Program-made: the position numbers and the translations under genes | Assembly: GCA_025351825.1 (NCBI GenBank) | Contig: JANXVE010000180.1 | Coordinates: 1-40,045 of the forward strand | Direction: 5' to 3' | Source: Chamaesiphon sp. 341R_metabat_111 | GTDB taxonomy: Bacteria > Cyanobacteriota > Cyanobacteriia > Cyanobacteriales > Chamaesiphonaceae | Length of the DNA stretch: 40,045 nt | In this document: one piece after another, positions 26,545-33,078 of the stretch | How positions within the stretch are numbered: the first letter of the stretch is position 1 | How the letters are laid out: each line of letters starts with the position of its first letter | Notes under the pieces: model-generated | Seen by the model: only the letters and a program-made list of their open reading frames with translations | Told to the model about the DNA's origin: nothing | The model's database searches: none

Positions 26545-28065
26545 CTAACCAGTTACCGTATGTAAATGCTGACCACAATAGCCGATCGAGATCTTCCGAT
26601 CTTCGTTATCGACATCAAAATAAATCCGAATTTTGCGACCAATTTTCAGGTGCATATCCATGCGCTGAGTTTTCTTGCCAGCATAGGGAAAATCTCGCTC
26701 ATAACCATATTTTCCCATCGTGCTCATTGATTCGCGGCTACAGGGCACACCCCTTTGCCTGAGCAATTCGGGAATACTATTGCCGATCGATCCTTGAAAA
26801 TAGAGATCGCCAACTTCAGCCAGGATTTCTAGGACTGTATACACCTTCTTTGGCAGATATCGATCGATCGTCGCCGCTGTAGTAAAGGCGTTGTTCCAAA
26901 TATTTAGAATCATAAAATTTGTCCGCGCAAACATCAGAGCATCACAGACGGTTAGGCATTGAATGCTTGTATTTTCAGCAATAGTATTGTCATCAAGCTC
27001 TAATTTTTCCAGCTCATCGATCGTAAGTTTAAGCTCAGTATTTTCGCGCTGGAGTTTTTCATAACTAATATATTCAATATCGATCGATTGACACAGATCT
27101 TCAATGTTCTTCTCCGCTTCACATTTTTCTTGGGTTGTTGCCGCTAATTTTTGAGTAATTTCAGTTACCTTAGCTTGAGCGGACAAAGCTACCGTTTGAG
27201 CTTCATTCTTCTCATGAGTTGTCGCGACTAATCGTTGAACAGTCTCAGCAACCTTTGCTTGAGCCAGCCGAACATCTTCCTCCGCTTTAAGCTTCTCTTG
27301 AATTTTCGCAGCTAATCTATAGGAAATATCAGTAGCCTTAGCTTGAGCAAGCCGAATATCTTCCTCTGCTCTGAGCTTTTCTCGATCGGTTTCAGCCACC
27401 TTAGCTTGAGCTAGCCGCGCCTCTTCCTCAGCTTTGAGCTTTTCTTGAATTGTCTCCGCCAGTTGGTGAGCAATCTCATCTACTCTCGCTTGAGCGAACC
27501 TGGTATTTTCCTCAGCTTTGAGTTTTTCTTGAATTGTCTCTGCCAATCTTCGATCGATTTCCACCGCTTTCGATCGAGCCAGATCGGCATTTTTCTGAGC
27601 TTCAATTAGTTCTTGAGTCGCGGTATTTAGTCTCGCGTTCGTCTGGGCTAATTCCCTGCGAGTGGAGCTAACTAATGACTCAATCTGGATGTTGTCCAAC
27701 TGCGCTCGATCGATCTGCGCCTGCGCCTGCTGGATTTCGCGTTCAAATTTAATTTTTAGTCCAGCGGTTTCAGTCTGTGTCAGCTCTAGCTCCCACGATC
27801 TAGTATCAAAAATTTCTGATAATATGCCCGCAAAAACACCATTCAGCACTGCGATACTAGCTATTAAGCCATAACCCGCCCAAGGATGAACATCGTAACA
27901 GAAAATTATGCCTGTACTGGCGATCGCCGATAAAGCAACGACAGCAAGTGCCACAACCAGGGCGTTTTTGGCGAAAGGATCTTTAGAAAGTGCCAAGCTA
28001 GAATTAGATAGCTTGTTCATGGCTTGTATATTACCTATTTGTCTATAGATACTATTTACAAGCAA
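26545..28065 (-). CDS. Membrane-anchored coiled-coil protein with a conserved-looking C-terminal domain (506 aa)
   Basis: Two hydrophobic segments near the N-terminus (about 33-57, ALVVALAVVALSAIASTGII, and 64-85, GYGLIASIAVLNGVFAGILS) anchor it. Residues about 95-340 form a long coiled coil with near-identical 28-residue (four-heptad) repeats: LAETIQEKLKAEE...RxAQAKVxE occurs about five times. The C-terminal domain (about 360-506) is globular: CDALMFARTNFMILNIWNNA, MGKYGYERDFPYAGKKTQRM, MHLKIGRKIRIYFDVDNEDR, and YCGQHLHTVTG at the end. I have a sense that this last part is a conserved bacterial domain, but I cannot name it. The gene is divergent from a HigA-like regulator. A chemoreceptor-like or effector role is open. 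Confidence 0.65.
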   Translation of the reverse strand: MLVNSIYRQIGNIQAMNKLSNSSLALSKDPFAKNALVVALAVVALSAIASTGIIFCYDVHPWAGYGLIASIAVLNGVFAGILSEIFDTRSWELELTQTETAGLKIKFEREIQQAQAQIDRAQLDNIQIESLVSSTRRELAQTNARLNTATQELIEAQKNADLARSKAVEIDRRLAETIQEKLKAEENTRFAQARVDEIAHQLAETIQEKLKAEEEARLAQAKVAETDREKLRAEEDIRLAQAKATDISYRLAAKIQEKLKAEEDVRLAQAKVAETVQRLVATTHEKNEAQTVALSAQAKVTEITQKLAATTQEKCEAEKNIEDLCQSIDIEYISYEKLQRENTELKLTIDELEKLELDDNTIAENTSIQCLTVCDALMFARTNFMILNIWNNAFTTAATIDRYLPKKVYTVLEILAEVGDLYFQGSIGNSIPELLRQRGVPCSRESMSTMGKYGYERDFPYAGKKTQRMDMHLKIGRKIRIYFDVDNEDRKISIGYCGQHLHTVTG

Positions 28066-28113: not shown

Positions 28114-28521
28114 ATGAAGCACGATATGTATTACGGTTTTTTCGATCGGCATCAACCAAAAGCGATTACAACTGAAGCTGAAAATGAAGCGGCGATTGTT
28201 CTAGCAGAATCATTAGAGCATCGTCAACGTACGTCAGAAGAAGACGCTCTGCTAGAACTTTTAATTATCTTAATTGAGAAGTTTGAAGAAACTAGCTATC
28301 CATTACCGAATCTCGAATCCGTTTGCGGAGCGTCTCCTCTGGAGAATCGAATGCTACTGCATTTGATGGAAGCACGGAATATGAAACAAGAGGAATTAGT
28401 GGGAGTGATTGGATCTAGAGGGGTAGTGTCAGAGATAGTGAATGGTAAGAGATCGATCGGCAAGGCTCAAGCTAAGGTATTGGGAGAATTATTTCATGTT
28501 TCTCCCAGTCTATTTATCTAA
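28114..28521 (+). CDS. HigA-like XRE-family antitoxin/regulator (135 aa)
   Basis: The C-terminal HTH reads MKQEELVGVIGSRGVVSEIV followed by NGKRSIGKAQAKVLGELFHV, the HTH_3 pattern of HigA antitoxins. The N-terminal part ITTEAENEAAIVLAESLEHR and TSEEDALLELLIILIEKFEE is the helical segment usual in HigA proteins paired with HigB_toxin-type interferases. No HigB-like gene lies directly upstream (only 48 bp to the divergent gene) or downstream. It is therefore either an orphan antitoxin or works with the divergent coiled-coil protein. The ATG at 28114 is chosen; the ATG at 28104 is in another frame and short. Confidence 0.82.
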   Translation: MKHDMYYGFFDRHQPKAITTEAENEAAIVLAESLEHRQRTSEEDALLELLIILIEKFEETSYPLPNLESVCGASPLENRMLLHLMEARNMKQEELVGVIGSRGVVSEIVNGKRSIGKAQAKVLGELFHVSPSLFI

Positions 28522-28696: not shown

Positions 28697-29317
28697 TCAA
28701 TTATCAGTCAAAACAACTAAATTCACAATTTCTTCTCCACACCTATCGAGAAAATCTGTTATCTGCTGACAGTCATCCTTATCAATTAAGTATTTTTTAT
28801 TTGTCGAAGGGTCAATGTCAGCTTCATGAACAATTAAATTTCTTCGGTCTACTATTAACTTTAGTGTCGTTTTAGCTGTCTTATCATCCATTCCAATTTT
28901 ACTAGCAATTTTTTGCCATTTTTGACCTTCATCCCATATATAACTTAATCCTTCAGCTACTTTTATCGGATCTTGATAAGAAACGATTTTAAGTTTTTTG
29001 ACAATAGCTTGCTCGAAAATATACTCTTTCGGCGGGAATTCTGCAAAATTCAAATCGTTGTAAACTGATATTGATATTGTTTCCGACAAGTATTTTGGTG
29101 TTGGCTGTCTGCTGCCAGTAAAAATCTCCATTATACCTATACGAATAATGTCATGTATGAGTTTGTCAAAAGCACTTACTGAGTATACTATTTGAGATCG
29201 TAGTATATCATCAAAGGAAAGTGGTGATTTTATTTGACTTTCCACATATTCATGAATTGCTGATAAATTACGTGCATCTTGTATATTCCTCTTGAAAAGT
29301 TGCAACGAATTATACAT
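28697..29317 (-). CDS. HEPN-domain protein, putative RNase (206 aa)
   Basis: The protein has the two HEPN landmarks: a first helix pair with SQIVYSVSAFDKLIHDIIRI (41-60) and the RX4H motif RNLIVH (R159, N160, H164) in IVDRRNLIVHEADIDP. HEPN proteins with this motif are metal-independent RNases in toxin-antitoxin and phage-defence systems (family knowledge). The layout resembles the RiboL-PSP-HEPN type. The N-terminus (1-35) is helical and the C-terminus (DKDDCQQITDFLDRCGEEIV) is acidic. The gene overlaps the ParA-like gene by 8 bp, so translation is coupled. The AT-rich codon use suggests acquisition. Confidence 0.78.
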   Translation of the reverse strand: MYNSLQLFKRNIQDARNLSAIHEYVESQIKSPLSFDDILRSQIVYSVSAFDKLIHDIIRIGIMEIFTGSRQPTPKYLSETISISVYNDLNFAEFPPKEYIFEQAIVKKLKIVSYQDPIKVAEGLSYIWDEGQKWQKIASKIGMDDKTAKTTLKLIVDRRNLIVHEADIDPSTNKKYLIDKDDCQQITDFLDRCGEEIVNLVVLTDN

Positions 29318-30341
29318 GATTTAGTAGATCGATCAATTTGCCATTTAATAATTGGAACTTGCTTTTGAAGTTATCTCTGCGCTCTACCATTCCCTGAAAG
29401 ATAGGTCCAGTCGCCTCTAGCTCACTATCTAATAAATCAAAAACTGGCACACCTGCTTGATATGATTTTGGTAATAAACCTTGGAAATCCGGTATTTCAT
29501 CAAGACAGTAACCTCCGTCAATGAAATCTTGTGTATACTCGCCAGTCTTTAACGTCATTCCTACCGTGGAAATAGCAGCGAAAAATTCACTACTTATTTT
29601 GTTTTTTATTTCAGTAATATTATCTCTGTATGGTCTTGCCGCACGTCCGTTGCGAACGTTGAATCTCTGAATTAGACTTCCAATAAATTTAGGCTCTCCT
29701 TCTATTAATGGATATGCAGAATCAGAGAATAGCTGAACAGCATTCTTCTTCCATGAAACCCATTTAGGTAAAATATTTTTTAGTGTATCTATTGCCATCA
29801 ACGAAAATGGATCTGGATTAGTCGGGACAATAAATGCATGAGATGATAAAAACAGATTTTGATTTATTGCACTCAATCCTGGATTTAAATCTATAAAAGT
29901 ATAATCAATAGAATATTTTTCTTCAGTAAGTTTAATTAATTCAGAGAAAGCTCCAGGCAGATTCTGTAATGTAGTTATAGCGTTATTAGATGTTTGTGCA
30001 AATGTTAGTGCTGCGTCATACTCTGACAAATTAGCATGTCCTGCGAGTAAGTATAAAGATGAAGATCTAGCTGGAGAGAAACAATCTACAGCTTTGATGG
30101 GAACGGGTTTACCGCTAAAGGCAGCATGAACTCCATCCTTGATATTTTGATGCTTCGTAGAATCTTCAAGGTAATATCTTTCAAAATCATCGCCTAATAT
30201 CAGGCTAGATAGATTACATTGTGGGTCAGCATCTACAACCAAAACATTATATTGCTTTGACAGCATCCATCCAATATTGTAAACAGAGGTAGTTTTACTC
30301 ACTCCACCCTTGTGATTAAAAATAGCTACTCGCTTAGACAT
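29310..30341 (-). CDS. ParA/MinD-like ATPase paired with the HEPN gene (343 aa)
   Basis: A deviant Walker A ATPase. FNHKGGVSKTTSVYNIGWML has KGGVSKT at 11-17 with the signature Lys11; VVDADPQCNLSSLILG is the Walker A' region; YTFIDLNPGLSAINQNLFLS carries the hydrophobic strand and switch. The last 110 aa (ISSEFFAAISTVGMTLKTGE, EIPDFQGLLPKSYQAGVPVF) extend beyond the usual ParA core. No ParB, replication or partition site accompanies it; the only partner is the HEPN gene overlapping its 3' end. Upstream there is about 100 bp to the mutS stop, containing its promoter. This is probably a chromosomal accessory operon, not a plasmid partition module. Confidence 0.88.
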   Translation of the reverse strand: MSKRVAIFNHKGGVSKTTSVYNIGWMLSKQYNVLVVDADPQCNLSSLILGDDFERYYLEDSTKHQNIKDGVHAAFSGKPVPIKAVDCFSPARSSSLYLLAGHANLSEYDAALTFAQTSNNAITTLQNLPGAFSELIKLTEEKYSIDYTFIDLNPGLSAINQNLFLSSHAFIVPTNPDPFSLMAIDTLKNILPKWVSWKKNAVQLFSDSAYPLIEGEPKFIGSLIQRFNVRNGRAARPYRDNITEIKNKISSEFFAAISTVGMTLKTGEYTQDFIDGGYCLDEIPDFQGLLPKSYQAGVPVFDLLDSELEATGPIFQGMVERRDNFKSKFQLLNGKLIDLLNHV

Positions 30342-30441
30342 TTTTTAAATTCCATTAAGTTTTGTATCGAAACTATTACTGTACGCTAGCAAAGCATGGT
30401 CTTTTGTCTCCAGTTTACATGAAATCAAATATGTGTCAACT

Positions 30442-33078
30442 TCATGACATCGATTCCCGTAGTCCCAAGGCAATTTTACTATGCTCCTCAATTTGCGACA
30501 TCACCTGTCGAGCGCGACTAATTACTGTCGGTGGTAAACCTGCTAATCGTCCCGCTTCAATCCCGTAGGATTTACTTGCTCCGCCTGGTTGAACTTGATG
30601 GAGGAAGATGATTTGGTCGGGGAGTTCTTTGACTGTGACTTGATAATTTGCGACGTTAGATAGGATCGAAGCTAGTTCATTTAGTTCGTGATAATGGGTG
30701 GCAAAAATCGTGCGTGAACCGATTTCTGATGCTAGATATTCGGCGACTGCCCAGGCGATCGATAGTCCGTCAAATGTCGCTGTTCCTCGTCCAATTTCAT
30801 CTAATAAAACGAGAGAATTTGCAGTGGCGTGATTGAGAATATTGGCGGTTTCATTCATTTCTACCATAAAGGTAGACTGTCCGGTAGCGAGATCGTCTAC
30901 TGCACCGACGCGGGTAAATATCCGATCGCATATTCCCAGTGTGGCATTAGTTGCGGGGATGAAACTACCGATTTGCGCCATGATTTGGATCAGTCCTAAT
31001 TGGCGGAGATAACAACTTTTACCGCTGGCATTTGGCCCTGTGAGGATGATTAAATCGGGTGATTCGACGCTGGGGGTGATGTGTTCTGGTTGTCCGATTT
31101 GAGTGGAATTGGGGACGAAAAATCCAGCTAGTAGGGCTTTTTCAACGACTGGATGACGACCATCGGTGATGTGGATTTCGCGGCTTGGCACCATATTGGG
31201 GCGACAATAGCCCTGAGTGACAGCGATTTCAGCTAAACCGCAGAGGACATCGATCGCGGAGATACTGCGAGCTACCGTGCGGATTTGCTCGGTGTGAGTA
31301 GCGACGATCGTGCGGAGTTCGATGAAGATTTCGTGTTCGATCCGGTTGAGATCTTCTTGGGCAGTGAGGATGCGGACTTCCCGTTCTTTGAGTTCGGGGG
31401 TGATGTAGCGTTCTTCGTTGGTGAGGGTTTGTTTGCGGATGTAGTCGGCGGGTACTTGGTCGGCTTTGAGGCGGGAGAGGCTGATATAGTAGCCGAAGGT
31501 TTTATTAAATCCGACTTTGAGATTGGCAATGCCCGTGCGTTCCCGTTCGATCGATTCCAGATTTGCAATCCATTGCAGATCGCCACTGGCGGATTGACGC
31601 ATTTCGTCGAGCTGGGTGTTGATGCCAGGGCGAATAATCCCGCCTTCTTTGAGGTGAAGTGGGGGATGTTCGACGAGGTGGGCGGCGATATCTTGTCCCA
31701 AGGTTTCCAGTTCGGTGGGGACATAGTGGAGAGTTTTGAGAAATGGGGACTTGCCCTGGTTGGCAATGGTGGCGAGTTCGGGGAGTTTGAGGAAGGAGTC
31801 GGCGAGGGCGACTAGATCGCGGGCGTTGGCGCGTCCTGATGCGGCTTTTCCCGTCAGGCGTTCGATGTCGTAGATGCGTTTGAGCAGTTGTTGAAGATCT
31901 TGGAGCAGGAAGGTATTTTCGACCAGTTCTTGGATCGTTTCCTGGCGTTTATTGATGCTCTGAATATCGAGTAGGGGTTGTAAAATCCAGCGACGGAGGG
32001 CGCGTCCACCCATTGCGGTGCAGGTTTTGTCTAATGCCCAGAGTAATGAGCCTTGAAAGTTGCCGTCTCGCACGGTTTGAGTGATTTCTAGGTTACGGCG
32101 AGACTGATGATCTAAGACGAGATAATCACCGAGAGAATAGGTGCGGAGCGGTTGGAGCGCGACGGGATTACTTTTTTGGGTGGCTTCGAGATATTCTAAT
32201 AAGCCGCCAGCAGCTCGTACAGCGAGGGGAAACGGCGCACACCCCAAAGATTCTAGCGATCGCATTTTAAACGTATCCATCAGCCTTTGCTTGGCTTCTG
32301 GCAGCGTAAATGGTGCTAGAGGACGCATGGCGTAGCAGAAGCAATTGGGGAGACTGGTGGGGAGTAAATCGGAGGTTTCACCAGGGCGCAGTAGGCGGTT
32401 GAGGTCTGGCGCGGCGATCGGAATGAGGATTTCCGGCGGTTGGAGCCGCATCAGCTCCTGGGTGAGGACTTCTAAATCGTTGCTCTGGGTGGTGAGAAAT
32501 TCACCTGTAGAAATATCGGTATAGGCTAATCCCCAATTGTCGCCGACGAGGACGATCGCAGCGAGAAAGTTATTCCGCCGCGATTGGAGCATTTCTTCTT
32601 CCTGAATCGTGCCTGGAGTCAGTACCCGCACGACTTCTCGCCTAACTAAATTACCTGCGGCTTCAGCGGCGGTTTCCATTTGATCGCACATCGCGATCGC
32701 GTAGCCTTTTTCGACTAACATGGCACAATAGCGATCGACTGCATGATGCGGTACGCCCGTCATCGGTACCCGTCCGATTTCTTTCCCGCCTTCCTTGCTG
32801 GTGAGTACCAATTCTAGTTCCCGCGCGATCGTAATTGCATCCTGAAAGAACGTCTCAAAGAAATCCCCACAACGGTATAACAGCAAAGCGTGAGGATACT
32901 GCTCCTTCACCTCGACATAGTGTTGGTACATCGGCGAGAGCTTGGATTTGTCGAGCAACCGATAATCACCGTTGCGAATTTGGCTCTGTCTTGACTCACT
33001 TTTCGCGTCGGGAAACCCGACGGGCGTGAGTCGCTGGCTCGTGCGAATACCAGTCAAGTCAGGGATGTTGTCAGACAT
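30442..33078 (-). CDS. mutS: DNA mismatch repair protein MutS
   Basis: An 878-aa MutS that recognises mismatches. The N-terminal mismatch-binding domain has [20 protein letters not shown] followed by [14 protein letters not shown], where the Phe of the GDFFE(T)F type contacts DNA. Connector, lever and clamp domains follow. The C-terminal ATPase has Walker [31 protein letters not shown], Walker [21 protein letters not shown], and [14 protein letters not shown]. The N-terminal 40 residues before LSPMYQHY are variable in the family. Here they include [13 protein letters not shown], encoded by a palindromic repeat element (32993-33032). No mutL lies in the window. It is downstream of no other gene on its strand and followed by the ParA-HEPN operon. 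Confidence 0.96.
32993..33032. repeat. Palindromic element (copy 2) inside the mutS coding sequence
   Basis: The outer stem GACTCAC (32993-32999) pairs with GTGAGTC (33026-33032). The inner stem is GTCGGG-AAA-CCCGAC (33007-33021), with linkers of 7 and 4 nt. The inner core is identical to copy 1 at 1072-1107. Here it is read in frame and adds residues around VGFPDAK near the mutS N-terminus. Confidence 0.75.

Follow-up and report, generated by a model that had tools for sequence, protein, structure and literature searches.

The pairing of a ParA/Soj-like ATPase with a HEPN protein was proposed in 2013, without experiments, as a toxin-antitoxin dyad for the MAE_18760 family of HEPN proteins (Anantharaman et al. 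2013, PMC3710099). In that proposal the two genes are adjacent, with the HEPN protein as the RNase toxin and the ATPase as the antitoxin. Two further ParA-like proteins have been described in prophages. The first gene of remAIN, in the immunity region of the Salmonella prophage Gifsy-1, encodes a ParA-like ATPase without ParB; the remAIN region is needed for the RNA-repair signal of a strain in which cleaved tRNA builds up, and phage titres rise when this region is deleted (PMC9879122). GiPD474, a ParA/MinD/Soj-like ATPase encoded next to a prophage repressor, blocks the phages T4, Alf5 and FO1, and the resistance to T4 amounts to approximately 5 logs (PMC12724215). Here, we compare these systems with a ParA-HEPN gene pair found in a cyanobacterium, Chamaesiphon sp. 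341R_metabat_111.

Organization of the ParA-HEPN pair

The window, by which we mean the whole analysed stretch of 40,045 nucleotides (contig JANXVE010000180.1), carries both genes of the pair on its minus strand. A ParA/Soj-type ATPase gene (29310-30341, 343 aa) comes first and is followed by a HEPN gene for a predicted RNase effector (28697-29317, 206 aa), the 3' end of the former overlapping the start of the latter by 8 bp (29310-29317, minus strand), as read directly from the sequence. Both open reading frames, the overlap and the motifs KGGVSKT and RNLIVH lie exactly where a first-pass annotation, made from the DNA letters, had placed them. That annotation had also described the pair as AT-rich and inserted between a HigA-like gene and mutS, which is borne out by a GC content of 34.6%, compared to 45.1% in the remaining window, and by the flanking genes, an HTH_3/HigA-like gene at 28114-28521 and mutS at 30442-33078. 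The HigA-like antitoxin is an orphan, with no HigB in the window. The promoter of the pair is presumed to lie in the intergenic stretch upstream of it (30342-30441, minus strand). Elsewhere in the window, positions 26545-28065 encode a long coiled-coil protein with repeated segments, the last 120 residues of which match the PADLOC model NsnC (E 1.3e-23).

Protein families and active sites

The HEPN protein matches the Pfam family HEPN_RiboL-PSP (PF18735) with 52 bits (E 1e-13; gathering cut-off 28.4), its relatives score 31-59 bits against the same profile, and it also matches phrog_13503 (E 3e-64). The RX4H catalytic motif, RNLIVH (R159-H164; 28826-28843, minus strand), is intact, and across 41 pairs the residues R40, D51, H55, Q115, W134, R158, R159, I162, H164 and D167 are invariant. 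We modelled both proteins with AlphaFold (AF2), using input alignments of 25 rows for the HEPN protein and 27 rows for ParA. For the HEPN model (pLDDT 93.6), Foldseek alone returned no match at E < 0.001. In the VIA re-alignment, structural ranks 1-14 were all HEPN or HEPN-like, including MNT-HEPN toxins and AF0298, and formed a single block above the unrelated rows, with Z-scores of 8.0-9.1, a modest value for a helical bundle. The profile and fold searches thus uphold the HEPN assignment made in the first-pass annotation, and the protein is predicted from its sequence to be an endoribonuclease.

The ATPase matches Pfam AAA_31 (PF13614, E 1e-23) and phrog_164 (E 2e-39), and carries the deviant Walker A motif KGGVSKT at residues 11-17 (30291-30311, minus strand). 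K11 and K16 are invariant among the 27 ParA relatives aligned, so that the protein has both the signature lysine and the KGGxxKT loop by which ParA/MinD proteins are recognized. Its model is confident (pLDDT 94.3), and the best structural matches are Soj (Z 27.1) and the orphan DIP2308 (3pg5, Z 26.5), the latter extending over the C-terminal part of the protein as well. The ParB gene that stands beside parA in ParABS systems is missing at the pair; there is no ParB in the vicinity, and the sole ParB_N domain of the genome is found on a different contig. Comparison of the upstream regions of 17 relatives revealed no common inverted repeat, although short or distant sites could escape such a comparison. 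These observations agree with the earlier statement that no ParB/parS system is located nearby.

Comparison with described systems

The HEPN protein of the 2013 dyad belongs to the MAE_18760 family (PF18737, which covers the MAE_28990/MAE_18760 kind), whereas that of the window scores for PF18735 and has no PF18737 match. The relatives of the window protein score 13-28 bits against PF18737 (cut-off 26.8), and since these values are near the cut-off, the 2013 set and the present family may overlap. Among the cyanobacterial PF18737 loci for which flanking sequence was available, the only one adjoined by a ParA of the kind in the window belongs to the present family, with the proviso that more distant ParAs might escape the profile used.

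HEPN/MNT toxin-antitoxin systems, such as SO_3166-SO_3165, have in common with the window pair the HEPN fold and a directly adjacent partner, there the antitoxin, and they are among the best structural matches. Their partner, however, is a nucleotidyltransferase rather than a ParA ATPase, and sequence identity is 6-16%. PrrC, which occurs with the PrrI type I restriction-modification (R-M) system, resembles the proposed pair in placing a HEPN RNase under the control of an NTPase, but does so in one polypeptide with an ABC-type NTPase, where the window has two genes and a ParA-type NTPase.

RemAIN and GiPD474 are closer to the ATPase side of the pair. RemAIN consists of three genes, two of them without an assigned domain in PMC9879122, whereas the window system has two, and the likeness is one of description. 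GiPD474 is a single gene without a HEPN partner and has GGVGKT at residues 29-34, in contrast to the HEPN-paired window protein with KGGVSKT at 11-17. We rejected an identity of the two, since look-alikes of GiPD474 are only 22-24% identical to the window ParA, a superfamily-level relation; the value is 21.8% (E 5e-10) for an E. coli protein that matches GiPD474 in length and in where the motif is placed. In our analysis these ParA-like anti-phage precedents count in favour of a defence reading of the pair, with the sequence relation of GiPD474-like proteins being a remote one. In E. coli prophages, lone KGGVSKT ParAs and GiPD474-like ParAs alternate beside the repressor (L211:4001-5077, L214:2950-4035, L016:5001-6074), and the lone ParA of the Salmonella P22-like phage ST160 occupies a similar repressor-proximal place. 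At another locus (L207:741-2647), a ParA-like gene overlaps a gene with a RelA/SpoT domain, possibly forming a ParA-alarmone-synthetase toxin pair.

PADLOC contains no model for a ParA-HEPN pair, and a match to one of its listed systems was discarded because hits were short or weak, none of them covering most of a model's length. Our literature search on defence by ParA-like or MinD-like proteins together with HEPN proteins found no report, nor an experiment on any member of the family.

The two genes form one unit

Among 386 cyanobacterial genomes searched, 30 had a match to the HEPN protein, and in 28 of these a ParA relative is located directly upstream; of the two loci without ParA, one is only a fragment of HEPN and the other a weak outlier. 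In the reciprocal search of 244 genomes, all strong ParA matches (21/21) adjoin a HEPN gene, and below them there is a gap in score followed by unrelated ParAs. Viral contigs contributed 20 loci with both genes, in the same order as in the window. The two genes proposed as a module in the first-pass annotation thus do recur together in unrelated genomes, and the alternative that they are rarely adjacent is excluded.

The phylogenies point the same way. The ParA and HEPN trees are congruent (distance-matrix Mantel r 0.903 for 41 pairs, 0 of 2000 permutations). ParAs with a HEPN partner fall into a single clade, with a support of 0.977. Their sister clade (L144, L147) has another gene downstream, and lone phage ParAs fall outside. 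The 8-bp overlap is kept throughout the clade of the window, that is, in other cyanobacteria, Pseudomonas, Pf1 and WX-TY, while a second cyanobacterial clade usually has an overlap of 17 bp and mostly a HEPN protein with an insertion of approximately 50 aa. Such a recurrence of gene order and overlap, from cyanobacteria to Pseudomonas and Pf1, is far beyond chance. Sequence comparison thereby shows ParA and HEPN to be obligately linked and to evolve together as one unit, in which the active site of HEPN and the nucleotide site of ParA are both intact.

In the sister clade (L144:6004-7958, L147:1021-2593), the protein following ParA is unrelated to HEPN. The one in L144 contains the string RNDAIH close to the C-terminus, and we considered it as a HEPN candidate, but profile comparison with the HEPN family did not support this. 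Separately, an intact pair in L231 is followed, after approximately 2 kb, by a second and partial copy of ParA (L231:5788-6330).

Decay of the pair is asymmetric

In 11 genomes the HEPN gene is broken while ParA is open and of full length, and the reverse is seen in one (G727, a nonsense mutation in ParA). The HEPN lesions comprise an interruption with the rest of the gene 1 kb away (G912), frameshifts (G801, G795, G245), nonsense mutations (G854, G084), deletions (G928, G906, G929), a truncation (G205) and a split gene (G010); because the lesions differ, most of them should be independent events. Both genes are broken in a further four genomes (G892, G938, G799, G395). Under a gene-length-weighted null that ignores kinship, at least 11 of 12 in this direction has a probability of P = 0.00045, with pseudogenes counted at the species level and some of the assemblies being drafts.

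This polarity of 11:1 favours a role for ParA as the restrainer and for HEPN as the costly effector, and judged from these lesions it fits better with ParA restraining HEPN than with ParA as a mere activator. The first-pass annotation had the ATPase sense or localize. One could accordingly envisage that ParA is a sensor and that the HEPN RNase stays idle until, upon infection, ParA recruits or activates it, in the way that ATPases work in several Abi systems. ATPase-nuclease pairs are common in defence, and other ParA-like proteins work in anti-phage elements, both of which speak for such an arrangement. A HEPN protein that is harmless without ParA, however, predicts equal decay in both directions rather than the 1 versus 11 seen, and we therefore consider an activating ParA unlikely. 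That ParA is kept where HEPN is lost could mean that it has a function of its own; lone relatives exist in prophages.

Distribution and mobility

The presence of the pair in cyanobacteria is patchy (30/386 genomes), and no match was found in the eight other genomes of the window's own genus. Between the window and a Pseudomonas locus (L005), ParA is 69% and HEPN 64% identical, close to the values within the clade for other cyanobacteria (ParA 74-79%, HEPN 65-74%). The pair is present in the filamentous phages Pf1 and WX-TY, and plasmids of Burkholderia glumae, mostly conjugative, carry it as well. Other pair-bearing contigs appear prophage-like, with genes for phage repressors, integrases and structural proteins close to the pair. 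The pair is thus shown, by sequence comparison, to be horizontally mobile and to travel on phages and plasmids. The annotation of Pf1 names the ParA and lacks the HEPN open reading frame, which we locate at L012:4001-4528 (AY324828, complement 408-935); it keeps the RX4H motif, and its C-terminus falls approximately 27 residues short of that of its relatives.

Carriage by the episomal phage Pf1 and by conjugative plasmids, together with the ParA fold, would be compatible with a maintenance cassette, in which an orphan ParA stabilizes a phage episome or plasmid, HEPN acts as an addiction toxin and the chromosomal copies are leftovers. Many copies, however, are chromosomal and intact, located in unrelated places among ordinary genes, and the window has neither ParB nor upstream repeats shared with relatives, which makes such a cassette quite improbable.

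Nearby defence genes, named as support in the first-pass annotation, occur at one proteobacterial locus. In this gammaproteobacterial type I R-M cluster (L232:5546-14002), the pair is placed between hsdS and hsdM, in the order hsdS, pair, hsdM, hsdS, a position inside a type I R-M operon that is known for PrrC (PMC3710099), and the corresponding slot in sister species of the window holds toxin-antitoxin genes. On the other hand, most neighbours of the cyanobacterial copies are ordinary genes, and no enrichment of defence islands was evident around them when these loci were inspected by themselves.

A probable turnover site beside mutS

Sister species keep mutS on one side of the slot and do not have the ParA-HEPN pair. 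Two of them (L250 and L252) also keep the coiled-coil gene on the other side, at approximately 85% DNA identity, and in three (L248, L249 and L251) synteny is on the mutS side alone. The L252 slot contains HigB-HigA and BrnT-BrnA, the intact HigB-HigA (L252:5339-6017) being in the place of the orphan HigA of the window. In L250 the slot holds a remnant resembling BrnA together with further genes, in L249 a GmrSD_N protein with HigB-HigA, in L251 MazF-like and PIN genes, and in L248 a NucS-like nuclease. Since toxin-antitoxin and restriction genes occupy the slot in the sister species, the pair appears, from synteny at this particular locus, to sit in a turnover site for such genes.

These data also bear on whether the pair takes part in conflict at all. 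Some HEPN proteins are non-catalytic and some orphan ParA proteins position cargo, and the pair could by analogy be a regulator of host RNA metabolism, with HEPN binding RNA and ParA positioning it. The catalytic residues, however, are invariant in 41 pairs, the distribution is patchy (30/386, and 0/8 within the genus), phages and plasmids carry the pair, and toxin-antitoxin genes take its place in sister species, so that we regard a housekeeping role of this kind as very unlikely.

Discussion

ParA-HEPN is probably a variant of the HEPN toxin-antitoxin/Abi systems which was foreseen in outline in 2013 and is absent from PADLOC. The first-pass annotation had called it an undescribed conflict module. 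Its reading as a conflict module is backed by the obligate linkage and common phylogeny of the two genes, by their mobile contexts, by the slot and by the polarity of decay, while "undescribed" was too strong a word, given the earlier proposal (PMC3710099).

We think it probable that the pair is a mobile two-gene conflict module of the toxin-antitoxin or abortive-infection type, in which a ParA-restrained HEPN RNase is directed against phage or rival mobile DNA. HEPN would be the effector, a metal-independent endoribonuclease, kept inactive by the co-translated ParA-type ATPase. The trigger would most likely be replication or takeover by a phage or rival prophage that shifts the nucleotide-bound or DNA-bound state of ParA, and the freed HEPN protein would then cleave RNA of the cell, with tRNA or mRNA as plausible substrates, and thereby stop the infection. 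That HEPN acts as an RNase and that ParA restrains it are what we infer from the genomic record, as are the trigger, the target RNA and a benefit against phages.

More tentatively, one could speculate that the pair represents a distinct and widespread class of systems, as yet unlisted, that act against phages or between prophages, and that is carried on chromosomes as a cassette and by Pf-type filamentous phages as cargo. Here, a ParA-type nucleoid- and nucleotide-cycling ATPase would be the switch that restrains a HEPN RNase, and phage takeover of the nucleoid or the nucleotide pool the trigger; the lone or otherwise partnered ParAs might then belong to a larger ParA-based defence superfamily.

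ParA ATPases are almost automatically read as partition genes, including in the annotation of Pf1 and P22-like phages, and the monophyletic branch described here is tied to a predicted HEPN RNase and not to ParB. If the pair is a defence system or an inter-prophage weapon, the 2013 prediction becomes a testable system and the accessory genes of Pf1 gain a function. The single-gene GiPD474, the three-gene RemAIN and the two-gene pair might then follow one principle, in which ParA is the switch and phage takeover is what it reads.
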